Virus record (IMG/VR): IMGVR_UViG_3300035034_001963 | Span: 1-22,191 of that record | Reading direction: 5' to 3' (one strand) | Source: a virus | Length of the DNA stretch: 22,191 nucleotides | In this document: positions 9,103 to 16,169 of the stretch, in pieces | Layout: each line of letters opens with the position of its first letter | How positions within the stretch are numbered: the first letter of the stretch is position 1 | Notes under the pieces: model-generated | Databases searched by the model: none | The model's input: only the letters and a program-made list of their open reading frames with translations | Told to the model about the DNA's origin: nothing | Position numbers and translations under genes: made by a program

Positions 9103-11457
9103 TCAATTCATCTGCGCGGCGAAGCGCGTCCCTCTGAGGGGGTTCAAACCCTGTTGGCTCAAGATTGGTTTGGGATCTGTGATCCCGCCATTGTTGTCTA
9201 GATCAGCAAAACCGTCTGCCATATTGTTGAGCTTCAAGAATCCGTAGGTCGAGGAAGGTTTCGAACCAACAAAATCGAGATACGAAGGTGGAACAAGCCT
9301 GCCAGTGTTTACAAAGCGGCTGATGTTCCGCCCGTATGCATTCTCGGGAGTGACTGACATGTTGACGACCGAAACAGTATAACCAGCAGCCTTGTACAGG
9401 TCAATCGTCTTCTTAATGGAAGTGGGATTGTCTCCTACCTTTGGCAGAATGACGTTTGAACCTTTTGCGATAGCTAGAGCTTGAAGGCTCTTCGCTAGGC
9501 TGGAACTCTCTTCGTGGACTGCCGCAGCGCCAGAACCACGTTCAAACTCTGGGATAGACTTCTTGATCTCGTCAGAGTCAAGAATCATAGCCTTACGAGA
9601 AACAGCAATCTCATTGGCGATTGTAGACTTCCCAGCCGCAGGGGGACCGAGCAATATGGTCAGCTCTCTCTCGTAGAGGATTGGCTCAACAGGCAAGCCG
9701 ATTTCTTTCCAGGCCAACTCGTTAGCTTGAGTCTCCCAAGCCTCCATCGCAGCCTCGGTACCTTTGATGTCCTTGCCGTCGACTTTGTAGGTCCGATTCT
9801 CGTGCCATTCCTGCGAACCGTAACCCGGCTTCTCTGTTGTTTGTTCGCGCTTCTCCATCTCATCAATAATCGACAAGAGAGCAATGTGCGAATCGATGAC
9901 GTCACGGCCAGCGCCAGAGAGGACTAGAGACTTAAGCTCTTTACTCGAAACGCTTTTGATTGGAGATCCGTTGATCGAACCTGATGCACCACCAGAAGAA
10001 AACTGCCCCCCGGTCGATGTCCCCTTCGGGTCACGAGCTTGGGCGTCAGTTAAGACGCCGGGTTTCCCCGGCTTTGACTTTTCCGGCGGAACCAAAGCCT
10101 CCGCTTTCCCATCCTCGCCTTCGTCCTCTGCATCCCAAGGATCTTCGCCACCTTTTTCAAAGTAGCCTTTGTACTCTGCTTCCAGGCCAGGAATTACGCC
10201 AGCCTGAGTGAGCATGTTGACAGCCCCGCGCGAGAGCACCTCGTCAGGGATCAAGCCTGTGTCCTTGAGCGTCTTAATGGTGGCTACGCCTATCCGGCCC
10301 AGCTCTGACCGCTCTTTGTCGTTGTTCTGCCACAGGCTTGCCCAGAGGTAATGAACCTCCGGAGGACGAGACCCTAGGGCAGCATAGATCAGGCATTCGT
10401 CAAACGTAGCCATCGCTGGCGTGACGGTTAGCTCCTGACTTGCTGACAGGTGATCGTAGTAATTGCGCGTGTCGTTCTCGCCAGCGCCAGAGGTCCCGAT
10501 TCCGCTGTGAGCTTTACCGAACAGGCGCGAAAGAGGAACATCGGCTGCACCAGAAGCGTTCTGGCTGAACCGATCCATGATGTCAGGAAGAGCCGCAAAG
10601 CTGTAAGCCTTCTGCTCGTATTCCTCCATGTCGCCATCGAGGATCAACATGCCGTTGTTCCCTTTGGTCGTAGCAGCAAGAGCGTATCGCGCGAGCAGCT
10701 TTTGCTCCTCGTGAGGGTTGCCTGCAATCTGCATCAGCCCCTTGACCCTGATCACGTCGATCTTGGCCTCAAAAACCAATGACGCAATGTTGGCTGCGAC
10801 CGAATCGAAATGCTTGATGGCGGGGAGCGTAGCAGACAGAACGCTTGTCCCAAGCCGAAAACCCATTCCTTCTCGGCTTCCGACCATCAGATTCTCATCT
10901 GGGCTTTCTGACCCAATAAGAATAATGATCCGGCTAGGATGGATTCGCACGATTCCAGCAGCGGTCGTACCGACAACATCAAACCACTTAGGCTTCCCAA
11001 ATTGATCGGAAAGAGCATCCTGCTCAATTTCGCCTGGGTTAAGCTGCCTATGCGTCAGAACCGTTGCAAACCGAATGCCCCCCCGTTTGACCTTGGTTGG
11101 GTCCAACGGCAGAGATTGGTCGTCGCCGAGATCGTAATAGATGTAGCACGACCCATAAAGACGCGCCAGCTTAGTGGCGCGAACGAGTTTCTCTTTGATG
11201 CCGAGCTTCTTCTCAAGCTCCTCAAGCTTCTCGACTTGATCTTCTTCTGCCTGCCAATTGCGCCAGCGTCGGAAAGTGTCGCTGGCTGGAACGTCGACGA
11301 TCTTCTTGGCCAACCAAGACGTCTTGTAAGCCGCAGTAAGCTGCTGGTCGCCAATGTGCGTCTCAACGTAGGTCACGGACGTTGCCTTATCACGTGCAGT
11401 GCCGAGAGATGCCGTAAGGCTCTCCAGTCCATCAGCAAAGGCGACAGGCTTGTTCAT
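9103..11457 (-). CDS. Portal protein (DUF1073) fused to zeta-toxin-like kinase domain
   Basis: The 784-residue product (ATG at 11457; a TTG two codons upstream is also possible) has a DUF1073-type portal domain at about 20-430. This shows AYKTSWLAKKIVDVPASD, RRWRNW, ARLYGSCYIYYDL, HPSRIIILIG, and SRLFGKAHSGIGTSGAGEND. Next come an acidic linker, DAQARDPKGTSTGGQFSSGG (about 471-490), and a C-terminal P-loop domain. The last has ELTILLGPPAAGKST (Walker A, about 604-612), MILDSDEIKKSIPEF (acidic catalytic position) and GRNISRFVNTGRLVPPSYL (Arg residues). This is the layout of zeta/PezT-like kinases. Portal proteins form the dodecameric DNA channel; typical members are about 450-500 residues. No frameshift separates the two parts. 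No antitoxin gene is visible nearby. Substrate and activity of the C-terminal domain are unknown. Confidence 0.9.
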   Translation of the reverse strand: MNKPVAFADGLESLTASLGTARDKATSVTYVETHIGDQQLTAAYKTSWLAKKIVDVPASDTFRRWRNWQAEEDQVEKLEELEKKLGIKEKLVRATKLARLYGSCYIYYDLGDDQSLPLDPTKVKRGGIRFATVLTHRQLNPGEIEQDALSDQFGKPKWFDVVGTTAAGIVRIHPSRIIILIGSESPDENLMVGSREGMGFRLGTSVLSATLPAIKHFDSVAANIASLVFEAKIDVIRVKGLMQIAGNPHEEQKLLARYALAATTKGNNGMLILDGDMEEYEQKAYSFAALPDIMDRFSQNASGAADVPLSRLFGKAHSGIGTSGAGENDTRNYYDHLSASQELTVTPAMATFDECLIYAALGSRPPEVHYLWASLWQNNDKERSELGRIGVATIKTLKDTGLIPDEVLSRGAVNMLTQAGVIPGLEAEYKGYFEKGGEDPWDAEDEGEDGKAEALVPPEKSKPGKPGVLTDAQARDPKGTSTGGQFSSGGASGSINGSPIKSVSSKELKSLVLSGAGRDVIDSHIALLSIIDEMEKREQTTEKPGYGSQEWHENRTYKVDGKDIKGTEAAMEAWETQANELAWKEIGLPVEPILYERELTILLGPPAAGKSTIANEIAVSRKAMILDSDEIKKSIPEFERGSGAAAVHEESSSLAKSLQALAIAKGSNVILPKVGDNPTSIKKTIDLYKAAGYTVSVVNMSVTPENAYGRNISRFVNTGRLVPPSYLDFVGSKPSSTYGFLKLNNMADGFADLDNNGGITDPKPILSQQGLNPLRGTRFAAQMN

Positions 11458-11459
11458 GA

Positions 11460-12959
11460 TCAAAGATTATCCAGATTGATGCGGTCATTGCCAGAGAGCA
11501 TGTTGTTGATTGCGTCCATCATCGGGTCGACTTGGTCATCATGGCCACTGCCTAGACCGTCGAATGTCGCAAGCTCGGTTCGTAGGCTGTTGATCCATGG
11601 AGCGTTCTTAGGTAGCCAAACCATTCCTGAAGAGACCCAAGGAGCGGCGTCTAGGCCACGAGTATACTTGTCTCGCTCCCGAGGGATAGCCTGGACAGGG
11701 ACGCCCTTACGCTTGAGCCCCTGGATCAGGCCTGTGCCGCTGGCCTTGTCCTCTATCTTGAAGCCGCGCGGGTGAATGCCCATAGTCCGGTATCGGTTAT
11801 AGAAGAACAACGCATTCTTCTCGAGGTCTGGAGCTTCCCACTTGCCTCGAAGCTGATCAACCAAGTAGATGCCGGTGCGGTTCTTGGCCTTGCCCCATAG
11901 CTGGAATACGCTGAAGTCGTTGCGTTCCGCAGTCTTCATAGCGGTGTCCGCGAACATTACGAAGTAGTCCATCTCAGGAAGTTCTGTCCACTCCCTGAAG
12001 CATTCCATGTCGAATAGCGCGCCCTCAATGCTTGTGGGCCTACCTTTGTATTGGCTCTGGTAAGTGTACGCGTCAGCCTTGAGGACCTCAACCTGTTCGA
12101 GGTTGTGCTTATCTTCCCAGAGCGGACCTTCAGGAAGATTGTGCGGGATTTGTATCCCATTAGTCCATTCTTGCGGATAAGTGTCACCGCTCTCAATCAA
12201 GACCGGAAGGTCGAGATGGTGCCAGTAATCTCCTGTTCCGCCGGTCAGCAAATGCCCAGCAAAGTCATCGTTATGGAGCCGCTGCATGATCACGACGATC
12301 GGGACACCTTCGTGAGCCAGACGGCTTCTGAATGTGTTGGTTGAACGACGATTGACGTGTTTTCTCTTAGTTGGGCTGAAGGCGTCGTCTGGCTTGAGCG
12401 GATCATCGATGATCAGAGCGCCAGTGAATATGTTCTTCTCCATGCGGCCCGCACGGAAACCAGTGATCGATCCACCAGAAGCTTTAGCAAGCAACCCGCC
12501 GCCTGCCGAAGTCTGCCAACGATCTTTGGCTTTGGAATCAGTTCTCAGTTCAAACTTGCGCTCGCATATTTCTTGGTAGTCTTCAGACTGCACAAGCTTC
12601 TTAATCTTGTCGCTGTTCTCTTTTGCGAGCTCATCACTGAATGTCGCATGAATGAACTTAGACGCCGGGTTAATCTGGAAACCTTTGGCCATGAAGTTGA
12701 TCACTGCCAACTCGGTCTTGGTGTACCCCGGAGGAAGCGTGATGAGCAGCCGAGGTATTTCTCTTCTGAGAACCCGGTCTAACGTGTGACCTATAAGAGC
12801 GTGATGTTGCCCTACAAGGAATTCCATCCCTTCGCGTTCTGGGAAGAACCAACGGGTGAATGAGAGCAGTGACCCCCCGGCTGCAAGCTCAGAGTCCTTC
12901 TTCCTCTGAACCGCTAATGCCAAAAGCGCTAAGCGGGATGCCAAGTCGTCGTGCTTCAT
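11460..12959 (-). CDS. terL: Terminase large subunit
   Basis: The 499-residue product has the ATPase and nuclease parts of a packaging motor. ATPase motifs are LPPGYTKTE (residues 75-83, Walker A), ALIIDDP (181-187, Walker B with Asp185/186) and VVIMQRLHNDD (coupling motif). Nuclease motifs are YFVMFADTAMK (Asp338), FKIEDKASG (Glu403/Asp404) and GHDDQVDPMMDAI (Asp474/475/478), as expected of the RNase H-like fold. The 5' end overlaps the TerS gene by 71 bases. No strong ribosome site precedes the ATG, so translation may be coupled to TerS. The stop is three bases before the portal ATG. Confidence 0.95.
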   Translation of the reverse strand: MKHDDLASRLALLALAVQRKKDSELAAGGSLLSFTRWFFPEREGMEFLVGQHHALIGHTLDRVLRREIPRLLITLPPGYTKTELAVINFMAKGFQINPASKFIHATFSDELAKENSDKIKKLVQSEDYQEICERKFELRTDSKAKDRWQTSAGGGLLAKASGGSITGFRAGRMEKNIFTGALIIDDPLKPDDAFSPTKRKHVNRRSTNTFRSRLAHEGVPIVVIMQRLHNDDFAGHLLTGGTGDYWHHLDLPVLIESGDTYPQEWTNGIQIPHNLPEGPLWEDKHNLEQVEVLKADAYTYQSQYKGRPTSIEGALFDMECFREWTELPEMDYFVMFADTAMKTAERNDFSVFQLWGKAKNRTGIYLVDQLRGKWEAPDLEKNALFFYNRYRTMGIHPRGFKIEDKASGTGLIQGLKRKGVPVQAIPRERDKYTRGLDAAPWVSSGMVWLPKNAPWINSLRTELATFDGLGSGHDDQVDPMMDAINNMLSGNDRINLDNL

Positions 12960-13455
12960 TGCGCAACTTGTCCTCGTCGATTAGGCCTAAGGTTTGGATT
13001 GGTCCTCCGTCCTTGCCAGTAAGTTCAGAACGTTCAGCCAGACCGAGGCTCCTTGCGACGAGAGCGGGGTTCAGCAGACCTGCTGCAGCGCCAGTGAACT
13101 TCGATTCGTACATGGCTTGTTCAATGACCTCAACGACCGCATGAAGGTCAGGCCGATCATCGCCTCGACGCCAGCTACCCCATTGGTCTCTGTGAATGCC
13201 GAGATACAGACAGAGACCGGCAAGGGTCGGTGAGCGCATCTTGGGAAGCATCGCAACCCTGCTGCTGCCTTCGAAGCTGACGAGCTTTGCTTCTTCGAGC
13301 TGATTCTCTTCGAGCCATTCGAAGTATCCTGCGCATTTCACGAGAAGCTCTTCTGGTCCAGCATAACCTCTTTTGGCCCTGAGATTGGCTATGCCGATCT
13401 TCCAAAGCTGATTACCCTTGTAGAAGCCTACGCGGTCTTCTTGATCAGCAGACAT
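12889..13455 (-). CDS. terS: Terminase small subunit (P22 gp3-like)
   Basis: The 188-residue product contains YAGPEELLVKCAGYFEWLEENQL, MRSPTLAGLCLYLGIHRDQW, IEQAMYESKFTGAAAGLLNP and ALVARSLGLAERSEL, quoted here in short pieces. These match the DNA-packaging gp3 family (P22 small terminase), which recognises the packaging site and regulates TerL. Residues 74-97 look like the DNA-binding helix-turn-helix. The start ATG has AAGGAATA upstream, and a 10-bp palindrome (GGGTTAACCC) lies a little further upstream. The gp3-like type often goes with headful packaging, but no packaging site is identified here. Confidence 0.85.
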   Translation of the reverse strand: MSADQEDRVGFYKGNQLWKIGIANLRAKRGYAGPEELLVKCAGYFEWLEENQLEEAKLVSFEGSSRVAMLPKMRSPTLAGLCLYLGIHRDQWGSWRRGDDRPDLHAVVEVIEQAMYESKFTGAAAGLLNPALVARSLGLAERSELTGKDGGPIQTLGLIDEDKLRNEARRLGIPLSAFGISGSEEEGL

Positions 13456-13468
13456 AGTTATTCCTTTT

Positions 13469-13525
13469 GGGTTAACCCCAAGGGCCAGTCGCCTCTCATC
13501 GGAGGACGGTGTTCCTGGTCGTCCT
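13469..13525 (-). other. Structured gap between NusG-like gene and terS
   Basis: The 71-bp gap contains a perfect 10-bp palindrome GGGTTAACCC (13469-13478, flanked by TT/CAA) and a 6-bp stem AGGACG (13503-13508) with CGTCCT (13520-13525) and an 11-nt loop. The stem follows the stop of the NusG-like gene on the minus strand. On the plus strand it is followed by TTTAA, so it could also stop antisense transcription. A site for antitermination or a processing site ahead of terS is possible. Confidence 0.4.
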
Positions 13526-13526
13526 T

Positions 13527-14096
13527 TTAAGCTACTTCGACCGAGTCAATGGGAGCAGTCACGTTCTTGCCGTTAAGACTCAAACCGACCTGCCCGTTGG
13601 CGACAGAAGAATTGCGGAGCGTTGCGAGCAAACCTTCGAATGGCCCAGAGGTGAGCCTGAGGTGCCTGCCCTGTTGATGAGCTTGTGCGAGTTCAGCGAG
13701 CTTGGCGCTGATTGTCTCGAAGAGGGTAGGCTCAACGTGCTTGACGGAGCCATATTCAGCCTCTAGCTTGCGGAGGATCTGAATCTCGCTGTCGCGAGCA
13801 TAACAAGGTCCAGATGAAGTTCGGACGACACCATATACGTTCTTGCTGCGGAGGAGATCAGATAAGTCTTGATTGTCGTGCGCAGCCACAAACAGGTAGC
13901 CTGGAAGAAGGGGAAAGGAGAATAGCGCGCGGTTGCGGCCTTGCTTGACGGCTTCATGCTTAGGGAGCTTGCGCCACTTCACAATCGTAGGGTGATAGCA
14001 CTCTATGGAATGATTCTCTGAGAGGTGGCAAGCAATCCTGCGCTCTTCGCCTCCTTTGACGACAGCCGCGACCCAATGTTTGCTATCTCTTGTCAA
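13527..14096 (-). CDS. NusG/RfaH-like transcription antitermination protein
   Basis: The 189-residue product starts at TTG (14096) with TGAGGAAAA about eight bases before it; no better in-frame start is present. The N-terminal domain (HWVAAVVKGGEERRIACHL, ALFSFPLLPGYLFVAAHD at about 57-74, VYGVVRTSSGP) is the NGN fold, with the PGYLFV signature of NusG and RfaH. The C-terminal part (GRHLRLTSGPFEGLLATLRN, then VGLSLNGKNVTAPID) is a KOW domain. Such paralogues bind RNA polymerase and suppress pausing or termination. In this operon it lies ahead of terS and the head and tail genes, so it may ensure read-through over the ~15-kb late transcript. The target element is not known. Confidence 0.88.
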   Translation of the reverse strand: MTRDSKHWVAAVVKGGEERRIACHLSENHSIECYHPTIVKWRKLPKHEAVKQGRNRALFSFPLLPGYLFVAAHDNQDLSDLLRSKNVYGVVRTSSGPCYARDSEIQILRKLEAEYGSVKHVEPTLFETISAKLAELAQAHQQGRHLRLTSGPFEGLLATLRNSSVANGQVGLSLNGKNVTAPIDSVEVA

Positions 14097-14186
14097 GCCG
14101 TTTTCCTCAGAGGGTGACCCAATGAAGATGTTATGCCGGAATAGAAGAGCATAAGCACGCTAATAAACAGTGATCACCGCAAATAA

Positions 14187-14585
14187 TTAGTCCATCGCAA
14201 GAGATAATACGGCGTAATCAATAAAGTCTAGCTCGAATTCGCATACGATAGCTTCGCTTAGTTCACTAGAGAAGCCCCCCGAGAGTTTGATCTCAAAGAG
14301 GATGACCGAATAGTCTGATCGCAAAACTAGACCATGGGTACGTATGCCGAAACTCAACGAGGTCCTATGCCAAAGACGTTGCGTGGGCCGGAGTTCCTTG
14401 ATTACAGAATTGCCTCTCTTAAGCTCTAGAGGCTTCCAACGATCACCTATGGCCACAAGACAGTCCGGTAGCCCAACGTCTGAGCCGTTGGCAGGTTCTA
14501 TGAAGCCTATCCTGCCCTCTGGGAATCTATTCACGTCTCGAAGAGCATTACGAAGCAGGCTTTCCTTGAGGGGTTTGTTAGACAC
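14187..14585 (-). CDS. VRR-NUC / PD-(D/E)xK nuclease
   Basis: The 132-residue product starts at GTG with TGGAGG six to seven bases upstream. It shows a compact PD-(D/E)xK nuclease pattern: GLPDCLVAIGDRWKPLELKRG with Asp41 and Glu54-x-Lys56, followed by LRPTQRLWHR (Gln69). This fits the VRR-NUC family common in phages, which act as Holliday-junction resolvase-like or packaging/recombination nucleases. It is small compared with multi-domain family members, typical for phage copies. It lies between the HTH-like gene and the NusG-like gene. The substrate cannot be told from the sequence. Confidence 0.8.
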   Translation of the reverse strand: MSNKPLKESLLRNALRDVNRFPEGRIGFIEPANGSDVGLPDCLVAIGDRWKPLELKRGNSVIKELRPTQRLWHRTSLSFGIRTHGLVLRSDYSVILFEIKLSGGFSSELSEAIVCEFELDFIDYAVLSLAMD

Positions 14586-14600
14586 GGCACACCTCCAATT

Positions 14601-14629
14601 GAAAAGGGTTGACTATGGTGAGCCAACCC
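14601..14629 (-). terminator. Possible weak intrinsic terminator after the HTH-like gene
   Basis: In the leftward direction GGGTTG (14629-14624) and CAACCC (14611-14606) form a 6-bp stem, followed by TTTTC. The T-run is short and the loop is 12 nt, so termination would be partial, which would fit an attenuator that an antitermination system could override. Confidence 0.4.
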
Positions 14630-14657
14630 CTCTATTCCGATGTCGCCAAATGTCAGA

Positions 14658-14939
14658 TCAATTGCCGTCGTTGGTCGGGACGTATTCGGGGTTCTTGTAA
14701 ACCCGATTGCGAACGATCTGCGAGATGACGCCAGCAGAGGTGCCGAACTGGACGGCCAGAGCGGGATGCGTATGGAGCGGCTTTCCGGCCTTGGGCGACC
14801 CCTCGGGATGGGTCAGGGCGCGAAGCGAACGAATCTCGGCAATCTGCTCATCGGTGAACTTCGACCGCGTGCTTGCGACCTTCTCGGCCTTCGGCGGTTC
14901 TGCGGTCTGGGTCTGCGGTTCTTCGGTCTGGGTATCCAT
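14658..14939 (-). CDS. Small HTH-type DNA-binding protein
   Basis: The 93-residue product has a low-complexity N-terminus (MDTQTEEPQTQTAEPPKAEK) and a C-terminal region reading KFTDEQIAEIRSLRAL, then HPALAVQFGTSAGVISQIVR and NRVYKNPEYV. This 'L..EQ...IR.L.A....S...LA..FG.S...IS.I.R...Y' pattern is the helix-turn-helix of resolvase-like and homing-endonuclease-associated domains. AAGGAACC precedes the ATG. As the first well-supported gene of the leftward unit, close to the repeat array, it is a candidate for binding those repeats, but that is only an inference from proximity. Confidence 0.72.
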   Translation of the reverse strand: MDTQTEEPQTQTAEPPKAEKVASTRSKFTDEQIAEIRSLRALTHPEGSPKAGKPLHTHPALAVQFGTSAGVISQIVRNRVYKNPEYVPTNDGN

Positions 14940-14966
14940 AGTTGGTTCCTTTGATAAAAGTGTCGT

Positions 14967-15065
14967 TTACTCTGCTGCATTCTGTTGCAGCCTCGTGATG
15001 GTCTTATCGACCGGCTGTGCAGCAGAAGCATCAACTATTTGTGGAGAGCGTGAGAATATTGCCAT
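14967..15065 (-). CDS. Possible 32-aa small protein at the head of the leftward unit
   Basis: An ORF from ATG (15065) to TAA (14967) encodes MAIFSRSPQIVDASAAQPVD and a helical end KTITRLQQNAAE. A GGGGGG run lies six bases upstream, which is a poor ribosome site. It ends 27 bases before the HTH-like gene. It could be a short first gene or only a leader. Nothing in the sequence identifies a function. Confidence 0.35.
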   Translation of the reverse strand: MAIFSRSPQIVDASAAQPVDKTITRLQQNAAE

Positions 15066-15093
15066 GCGCGACCCCCCGGAGTTGTTGTGGCCC

Positions 15094-15141
15094 TATTGGC
15101 AACCCTTAGACCTTTCTAACCTGCTGGAGGGGTTGCCAATA
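15094..15141 (-). other. Stem-loop at expected 5' end of leftward RNA
   Basis: TATTGGCAACCC (15094-15105) and GGGTTGCCAATA (15130-15141) are perfect 12-bp inverted repeats with a 24-nt loop. Made of two repeat elements, it could act as DNA operator pair or as an RNA hairpin. Confidence 0.6.
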
Positions 15142-15148
15142 AAATCCC

Positions 15149-15178
15149 ATAAAAATGAGTCTTTCTTGGTATTAGCAA
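15149..15178 (-). promoter_or_regulatory. Putative leftward promoter in left arm
   Basis: On the minus strand TTGCTA (15178-15173) and TTTTAT (15154-15149) are separated by 18 bases; each has about four of six consensus bases. The -35 lies inside a repeat copy. Start of transcription near 15142 would place the stem-loop 15094-15141 at the very 5' end of the leftward RNA. Confidence 0.4.
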
Positions 15179-15191
15179 CCCCTTGAGATCT

Positions 15192-15228
15192 ATTGGCAAC
15201 CCCAGCTAATAACCAAGGGGTTGCCAAT
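15192..15228. other. Central inverted repeat pair
   Basis: ATTGGCAACCCC (15192-15203) and GGGGTTGCCAAT (15217-15228) are perfect 12-bp inverted repeats separated by 13 bases, between the two mirrored arms. It has no mirror counterpart with the same spacing. Confidence 0.6.
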
Positions 15229-15390
15229 CTTTCCTATTGTTTACGGTGCTTTATAGCTATTGGCTACCCTTTCTTTCTCATTCCTTCCTAAAAGGCAATA
15301 GGGAGAAATAAGAATATGAATAAAGGAATCGTGAATTCCCCGCCTGTTCTCCAAAAGGGGGGTCGTTGCGGTTGCTAATCGTGTTTGCGG

Positions 15391-15420
15391 TTGCTAATCC
15401 GAAAAAAGCCTCATTTTTAT
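15391..15420 (+). promoter_or_regulatory. Putative rightward promoter in right arm
   Basis: TTGCTA (15391-15396) and TTTTAT (15415-15420) are separated by 18 bases, the mirror image of the leftward pair. Transcription would start near 15427, at the edge of the stem-loop 15424-15479, and give a leader of about 200 nt before the first rightward gene. Confidence 0.4.
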
Positions 15421-15423
15421 GAG

Positions 15424-15479
15424 CTCTTATTGGCAACCCTTAGAGCGGAAAATGCAGGCTTAGGGGTTGCCAATAAGAG
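15424..15479 (+). other. Stem-loop at expected 5' end of rightward RNA
   Basis: CTCTTATTGGCAACC (15424-15438) and GGTTGCCAATAAGAG (15465-15479) are perfect 15-bp inverted repeats. In RNA the stem can be lengthened by about five more pairs, including two G-U, leaving a loop of about 16 nt. Confidence 0.65.
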
Positions 15480-15629
15480 GGTAAGGGTTGCCAATGCGAC
15501 CATTATTCAGCCTTTAAACGACGATAAACACCGATTTCTCAAGTTGCGCTGAAATACTTGAATCTTTTGCTTTATTTTCGAGCTATAAATATTTCCAACG
15601 GGCACTACTTCGTAGCAAAGGATCTGAAT

Positions 15630-16169
15630 ATGAGAGAAGAAAATTATTTCGCCTACGGATTTGAACCCGAGGATCTGGCCCCTCAACCGGTGCATGAGCC
15701 CCAAACAGCCGTCTACCTCGGCTTCGACAACGCACTCTACACTGACGGCAAAACTCCTTGCCAAGCGTTGCCTACTGTTTTGAACCTGAAGGGCGTAAAG
15801 TTCTTCATGCTCGATTCTGATGGAAACGAATGGCCCATCAGCAGAAAAGATTTGATCGAGCGGATGGAGAAAGGCGAGTACTTGTGGTTGTCTTCCAAAG
15901 AGGATAACCGCAAAGATGGAAGCTGGGTGCAAGGTTCTTGCTTTCAGATCAAATCAACCAAAGACATCAAGTCTTATCGGCCAGAGTTCAAACCGCCGTT
16001 CTCTGAGAGCAAAATCGAGGCGCTACTCGGGAAGCCTCAAGGCTCCTTTTTCTTTAAGGGGCGCTGCCGCCAACACAATCAAGACGGAACTGTGAGCCGA
16101 GGCACCAACTACAACACCCTCAAGCGCCTCAACGCACAGCGCCTTGCAGGCCTCAAAGGCGATCAATGA
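15630..16169 (+). CDS. Hypothetical protein, first gene of the rightward unit
   Basis: The 179-residue product starts at ATG 15630 with AAAGGA seven bases upstream; the frame is open further upstream from a TTG at 15558, but without a ribosome site. The sequence has an acidic N-terminus (MREENYFAYGFEPEDLAP), a middle region with TAVYLGFDNALYTDGKTPC and VKFFMLDSDGNEWPISRKDL, and a basic end (GRCRQHNQDGTVSRGTNYN, LKRLNAQRLAGLKG). I do not recognise the family. As the first gene after the putative rightward promoter it should be expressed early. The stop overlaps the next start (ATGA). Confidence 0.75.
   Translation: MREENYFAYGFEPEDLAPQPVHEPQTAVYLGFDNALYTDGKTPCQALPTVLNLKGVKFFMLDSDGNEWPISRKDLIERMEKGEYLWLSSKEDNRKDGSWVQGSCFQIKSTKDIKSYRPEFKPPFSESKIEALLGKPQGSFFFKGRCRQHNQDGTVSRGTNYNTLKRLNAQRLAGLKGDQ

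Follow-up and report, generated by a model that had tools for sequence, protein, structure and literature searches.

A conserved, mirrored array of a 10-bp element between divergent gene blocks of a phage: a probable regulatory switch region

Introduction

In phage lambda, the operators oL and oR and the antitermination sites nutL and nutR are mirrored on divergent operons. The lambda N protein acts at nutL and nutR in antitermination, and LoaP acts at an RNA hairpin. Phage HK022 possesses putL and putR, similar RNA elements that lie downstream of the early promoters PL and PR (PMC9378689). For mycobacteriophages, it has been established that a monomeric phage repressor can read an asymmetric DNA site (PMC9283540).

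Here, we analyzed a viral record of 22,191 bases (the window), which is a genome fragment and contains an array of a 10-bp word in the intergenic region between two oppositely transcribed gene blocks, one leftward and one rightward. The array resembles lambdoid oL/oR and the operators/stoperators of cluster A mycobacteriophages in being composed of repeated short sites, which control phage transcription in those systems. Unlike them, it has its word arranged in mirrored a-b-a modules and confined to a single intergenic region, whereas stoperators occur throughout the genome. The window fragment holds no recognised repressor. Like putL and putR of HK022, which are located on two early operons and are each able to fold into stem-loops in about 70-90 nt, the array presents two similar sequences. 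By contrast to the put sites, which need no phage protein, its potential stems are made by one repeated word and the loops of two modules drift; a comparison with Rfam at E values up to 1 gave no match. As in the RfaH/ops and LoaP systems, a specialised NusG paralog accompanies a repeated element that precedes long operons, and GGTWGC is common to ops and the a element of the array. The a word was nevertheless rejected as an ops element (GGCGGTAGCGTG), because the array element is GGTTGCYAAT and the A7T change abolishes RfaH recruitment in E. coli (PMC5995543). Unlike the array, the LoaP hairpin is of the UNCG type (PMC12691694). On the features tested, the array falls outside the put, RfaH/ops and LoaP systems. 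The original prediction had regarded long-range mirror symmetry as unusual for operator arrays and iteron origins. That mirror symmetry is foreign to known systems is not supported, given HK022 putL/putR and lambda oL/oR and nutL/nutR; since such mirrored early-operon elements exist, the symmetry introduces no new principle.

Results

Eleven elements of the ATTGGCAACC type (one change at most) were found within 401 bp (15095-15495), with the word present in both orientations. This count agrees with the eleven copies in about 400 bp given by the original prediction. The expected number of such matches was 1.42 per shuffled window (whole 22 kb), and the largest of 100 shuffles had 4. When the whole window was scanned, three one-mismatch matches and no exact copy were found outside the array, so that within the window the elements are confined to this spot. 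All 10 exact window matches of the pattern ATTRGCAACC are inside the array, and a reversed control pattern gave 0. The GC content over 15001-16000 is 46%, compared with about 49-54% in the flanking stretches.

We found that the array is built by repeating a single module, a*-30-b-(17 to 28)-a, which occurs three times, with two copies facing left and one facing right. Read outward, a module runs from an a element (GGTTGCYAAT; one copy is GGTAGCCAAT) through 29-32 bases to a b element (ATTGGCAACY), and then through 17-28 bases to another a element. Module A (15192-15268, minus strand) reads a1*-30-b1-17-a2. Its a1* (15259-15268, plus) is the variant ATTGGCTACC, which is ATTGGCAACC in L002, a contig of a related phage. 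Its b1 (15219-15228, minus) can pair with a2 (15192-15201, plus; ATTGGCAACC, identical in L002) across a gap of 17 bases, 14 of which are identical in L002. Module B (15095-15180, minus) reads a3*-30-b2-26-a4, and its a3* (15171-15180, plus), 11 bp from a2, is the variant ATTAGCAACC in both phages. In the leftward transcript, b2 (15131-15140, minus) appears as ATTGGCAACC and can pair, across a gap of 26, with a4 (15095-15104, plus; ATTGGCAACC, identical in L002), which appears as GGTTGCCAAT; the L002 ortholog of b2 is ATTGGCAACT. Module R (15389-15474, plus) reads a6*-30-b3-26-a7 and is the mirror image of module B. Its a6* (15389-15398, minus) is ATTAGCAACC in the window and ATTGGCAACC in L002, and its b3 (15429-15438, plus; ortholog again ATTGGCAACT) can pair with a7 (15465-15474, minus; ATTGGCAACC, identical in L002) across a gap of 26. 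Outside the modules lie a5 (15370-15379, minus), which is 9 bp from a6* and is the variant ATTAGCAACC in both phages, and a8 (15486-15495, minus; ATTGGCAACC), which is without an L002 counterpart. Tandem a elements 19-21 bp apart, or about two helical turns, occur in three places (a3/a2, a5/a6 and a7/a8).

The arms 15095-15180 and 15389-15474 match in mirror at 66 of 86 positions, including 30 of 30 within elements and 36 of 56 outside them, where shuffled spacers led to an expectation of 14.5. The strong mirror predicted earlier therefore holds, with a count of 66 instead of 65. The predicted arm spacings of 26, 8 and 11 did not hold: both arms have gaps of 26 and 30, and the next gap is 11 in the left arm and 9 in the right arm. 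A fourth mirrored pair (15192-15201 and 15370-15379), offset by 2 bp, brings the number to four elements per arm and leaves the elements at 15219 and 15259 (left only) and at 15486 (right only) unpaired in the mirror. Obtaining four mirrored pairs within 2 bp had a p of about 0.009 for the window when gaps and orientations were shuffled and of 0.002 for random positions; the same two null models gave 0.003 and 0.0005 for L002. A chance origin of the four-pair mirror is thus unlikely in both. The spacers of modules B and R are alike at 23 of 30 positions within the window, compared with 18 of 32 and 20 of 35 for each against its own L002 ortholog. Being more alike within the window than to their orthologs, modules B and R suggest an inverted duplication whose similarity may have been maintained through exchange.

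L002 is an 8.2 kb phage contig with a terminase 90% and a NusG paralog 74% identical to those of the window phage. It keeps 10 of the 11 elements without any change of order or orientation, and its gaps are 28-29-11-17-30-100-9-32-25 compared with 26-30-11-17-30-101-9-30-26 in the window. Over 100 element positions, the two phages differ at only 5 (95% conservation), whereas most spacers have diverged. Module A is conserved throughout (67 of 77 positions), while modules B and R retain words and spacing with a changed spacer sequence, their spacers and loops being only 48-57% identical to the L002 orthologs. The distance from a* to a is 76 bp in both window arms and 77 bp in both L002 arms, despite a shift of b. 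A second contig (L001, 5.3 kb) is identical over its full length to window 10123-15387; it thus represents the same phage and adds no independent evidence, so that two independent arrays, those of the window and L002, were compared. The elements and mirrored spacing are kept in this syntenic relative, as the original prediction demanded of related phages. Neither the array nor the NusG paralog was found in twelve loci with terminases 63-68% identical, some of which are the same phage and some of which are cut short. Because the related phage keeps the layout while the DNA between the words has changed, the array is confirmed as real and is probably a regulatory switch region between the divergent gene blocks.

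The leftward block, starting from about 14.9 kb, contains structural genes (small and large terminase, portal, protease and capsid). The portal gene (9103-11463) has a C-terminal zeta-toxin/AAA_33 (kinase-like) domain at window 9226-9663 (minus; Pfam Zeta_toxin, E 1e-19, residues 601-746). The rightward block, from 15.6 kb, contains mostly unknown genes and one Pam3 gp34-like gene; its first gene (15630-16169, plus) encodes a protein without a family match that is 63% identical in L002. The first gene of the leftward operon (14658-14939, minus) encodes a 93-aa HTH-like protein, a candidate site-binding regulator, which is 67% identical in L002 and was detected only together with the array. It gave sub-threshold HTH matches only in Pfam, with no confident family match. 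The third gene (13527-14096, minus) encodes the NusG paralog, a candidate elongation or antitermination factor detected only in array-bearing contigs (Pfam NusG, 3e-11; phrog_6386 transcription antiterminator, 1.8e-10). UpxY, RfaH and LoaP models outrank the NusG model, and all score far below NCBIfam cut-offs (34.3 bits against 144.5 for the RfaH equivalog model and 30.5 against 125 for LoaP). For this reason, we class the protein from its sequence as a specialised, unclassified NusG-family member that is divergent and RfaH/UpxY/LoaP-like. AlphaFold models of the HTH-like protein (a low-confidence three-helix model, mean pLDDT 56) and the NusG paralog (mean pLDDT 42) were too poor to use. As for the regulators named by the original prediction, the HTH-like protein is kept as a candidate, but neither it nor the winged-helix-like protein has a confident family match, and the NusG paralog was absent from that proposal.

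A 132-aa gene between the HTH and NusG genes (14187-14585, minus) has the look of a VRR-NUC-type nuclease by eye and no family match. A small conserved frame lies between the array and the HTH gene (window 14967-15065, minus, MAIFSRSPQIVDASAAQPVDKTITRLQQNAAE; L002 1468-1584, plus). In L002 it does not begin with ATG, and its stop codon and the start codon of the HTH gene overlap in the sequence ATGA. It is a possible leader peptide candidate.

We next consider how the array might be read. The reading that we tentatively prefer, at somewhat less than an even chance, is that the elements are asymmetric sites at which a DNA-binding regulator encoded by this tailed phage would act on its two divergent operons, which would share the array as a control region. 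The 10-bp asymmetric element would be recognised as duplex DNA and bound at many copies simultaneously by a phage-encoded regulator, and the bound regulator would repress or activate outward transcription into both genome arms. Each a*-b interval may cover a promoter, with b located where transcription would start; a* usually contains TTGCCA or TTGCTA, which is 5/6 or 4/6 of a -35 box. The regulator may be the adjacent HTH-like protein, which would also control itself as the product of the left operon's first gene. As in operator arrays, multiple copies of one word occupy the control region and are absent elsewhere. The conservation of the elements against the diverged spacers of modules B and R, the use of both orientations and the lack of an exact copy elsewhere argue for such sites, as do the two-helical-turn spacing of tandem a words, the constant 76/77-bp a*-a distance and the small HTH-like gene that heads the left operon and is found only with the array. 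Conserved elements that lack a hairpin partner, such as a5, point the same way, since a pure hairpin model would need none. On the other side, the element is non-palindromic whereas most HTH operators are palindromic, the HTH assignment is weak, and the drift of b preserves outward RNA pairing. Nor is there a promoter above chance: using a sigma-70 consensus, which may not be the host's, we found 0 sigma-70-type promoters against 1.0 expected in the window array and 1 against 1.1 in the L002 array.

The pairing of b with a bears on the main rival explanation, to which we give well under an even chance, namely put/nut-like mirrored recruitment sites for processive antitermination by the phage NusG paralog. 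Outward transcripts from the centre would present b-a hairpins in nascent RNA, or else the a words would be read as non-template DNA. At these sites the NusG paralog, a product of the left operon, would load on RNA polymerase and carry it through both operons. Potential hairpins of 9-12 bp are formed by b and a in outward transcripts, and the left operon does encode the divergent NusG paralog of array-bearing contigs. Among six hairpins compared at 13 positions, outward pairing has 5 wobbles and 5 mismatches whereas inward pairing has 1 wobble and 9 mismatches; however, the 5:1 ratio of wobbles falls short of significance (one-sided p about 0.11), and a single homogenisation event may account for the L002 changes. 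All three L002 b elements have T for C at position 10, so that outward pairing survives as U.G; at position 11, the C-G pair of the window corresponds to U-A in two of the L002 hairpins. Predicted hairpin energies favour the outward strand in 5 of 6 cases, and the inner stem of hairpin A, which is the same in the window phage and L002, is predicted in the outward strand only. The window outward strands fold better than shuffles (z of -3.3 and -5.8), but the L002 right arm folds slightly better inward, modules B and R have long, unconserved loops, and a elements without a pairing partner are conserved as well. Moreover, RfaH recruitment is abolished by the A7T change in ops (PMC5995543) and the element carries a T at this position, and no intrinsic terminators were seen in the window leaders. 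Attenuation by intrinsic terminators was rejected because none was found in the window region, and a boxA-like GCTCTTA before b3 was dropped because it has no L002 counterpart.

An iteron-type replication origin, at which an initiator would bind the repeats and melt DNA in the AT-richer intergenic stretch, is improbable. The repetition of a short word where the DNA is locally richer in AT agrees with it; however, the words are irregularly spaced, mirrored instead of arranged in tandem and mixed in orientation, and no initiator gene was recognised among the scanned proteins of this genome fragment, so that the expected tandem direct repeats with a nearby cognate initiator gene were not found. 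Cumulative GC skew, put forward earlier as a check for an origin, has no clear turn at 15.3 kb. We give still less credence to other protein-DNA sites, such as those for packaging (cos/pac), partition or attachment-site arms. Terminase genes are 1.5-3.5 kb to the left, although the array is three genes from terS; and while GTTGCCAATTG repeats start integrase-like genes at other loci, no integrase or ParA/ParB gene was recognised here, which is weak evidence in a fragment. At those loci (L137, L141 and L143), the GTTGCCAATTG repeats are near tRNA-end-like sequence and are perhaps integrase arm sites. Several viral contigs (L024, L025, L028, L036, L049, L054, L055, L059, L068 and L073) each have a single copy of a different recurrent 37-bp inverted repeat, for example ATTGGCAACTGTTAAGTAATGCTTACAAGTTGCCAAT.

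Pattern scans of 2.9 million viral contigs revealed no other array. Hairpin-pattern matches outside the window clade were lone hairpins, judged to be chance or other families, and the tandem a-word pattern gave no further mirrored array, its three matches being repeats that start integrase-like genes. Relatives of the NusG paralog, the HTH protein and the first rightward gene were found in viral contigs L001 and L002 only. None of the three had a match in phage records at E 0.01, where a housekeeping NusG query did retrieve more distant phage NusG homologs. The NusG paralog was not found in GTDB genomes or in 385 genomes of one class, an empty result that carries little weight, and terminase relatives in GTDB genomes came to 54 loci, 0 of which showed the array or a copy of the NusG paralog in the stretches examined. 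In none of the other collections searched did word, module and genes occur together.

Discussion

The original prediction held that one protein or RNA mechanism controls both arms of the genome from this site. The idea of a control region is supported, as the same element serves both arms, is conserved and is confined between divergent operons; the mechanism is one that we infer. Because the outward wobble asymmetry is not significant by itself and its events are perhaps not independent, recognition of the elements as duplex DNA is ranked ahead of NusG antitermination, by a small margin. A complete scheme, in which mirrored leader elements (RNA hairpins or non-template words) would recruit the NusG paralog to both divergent operons as one antitermination switch for the whole genome, is a shade more doubtful than antitermination sites as such.

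If the array consists of DNA sites, it would be a compact, mirror-built switch for both phage genome arms, with an element, protein and layout for which the collections searched gave no match. Were the NusG paralog to read the array, the phage would use its own NusG-family factor as lambda uses N, and a phage would then provide either a second RNA-guided NusG-family protein, in addition to LoaP, or an ops-like code of a new kind. Under either reading, the conserved a*-30-b-a module would be a precise target for mutation.
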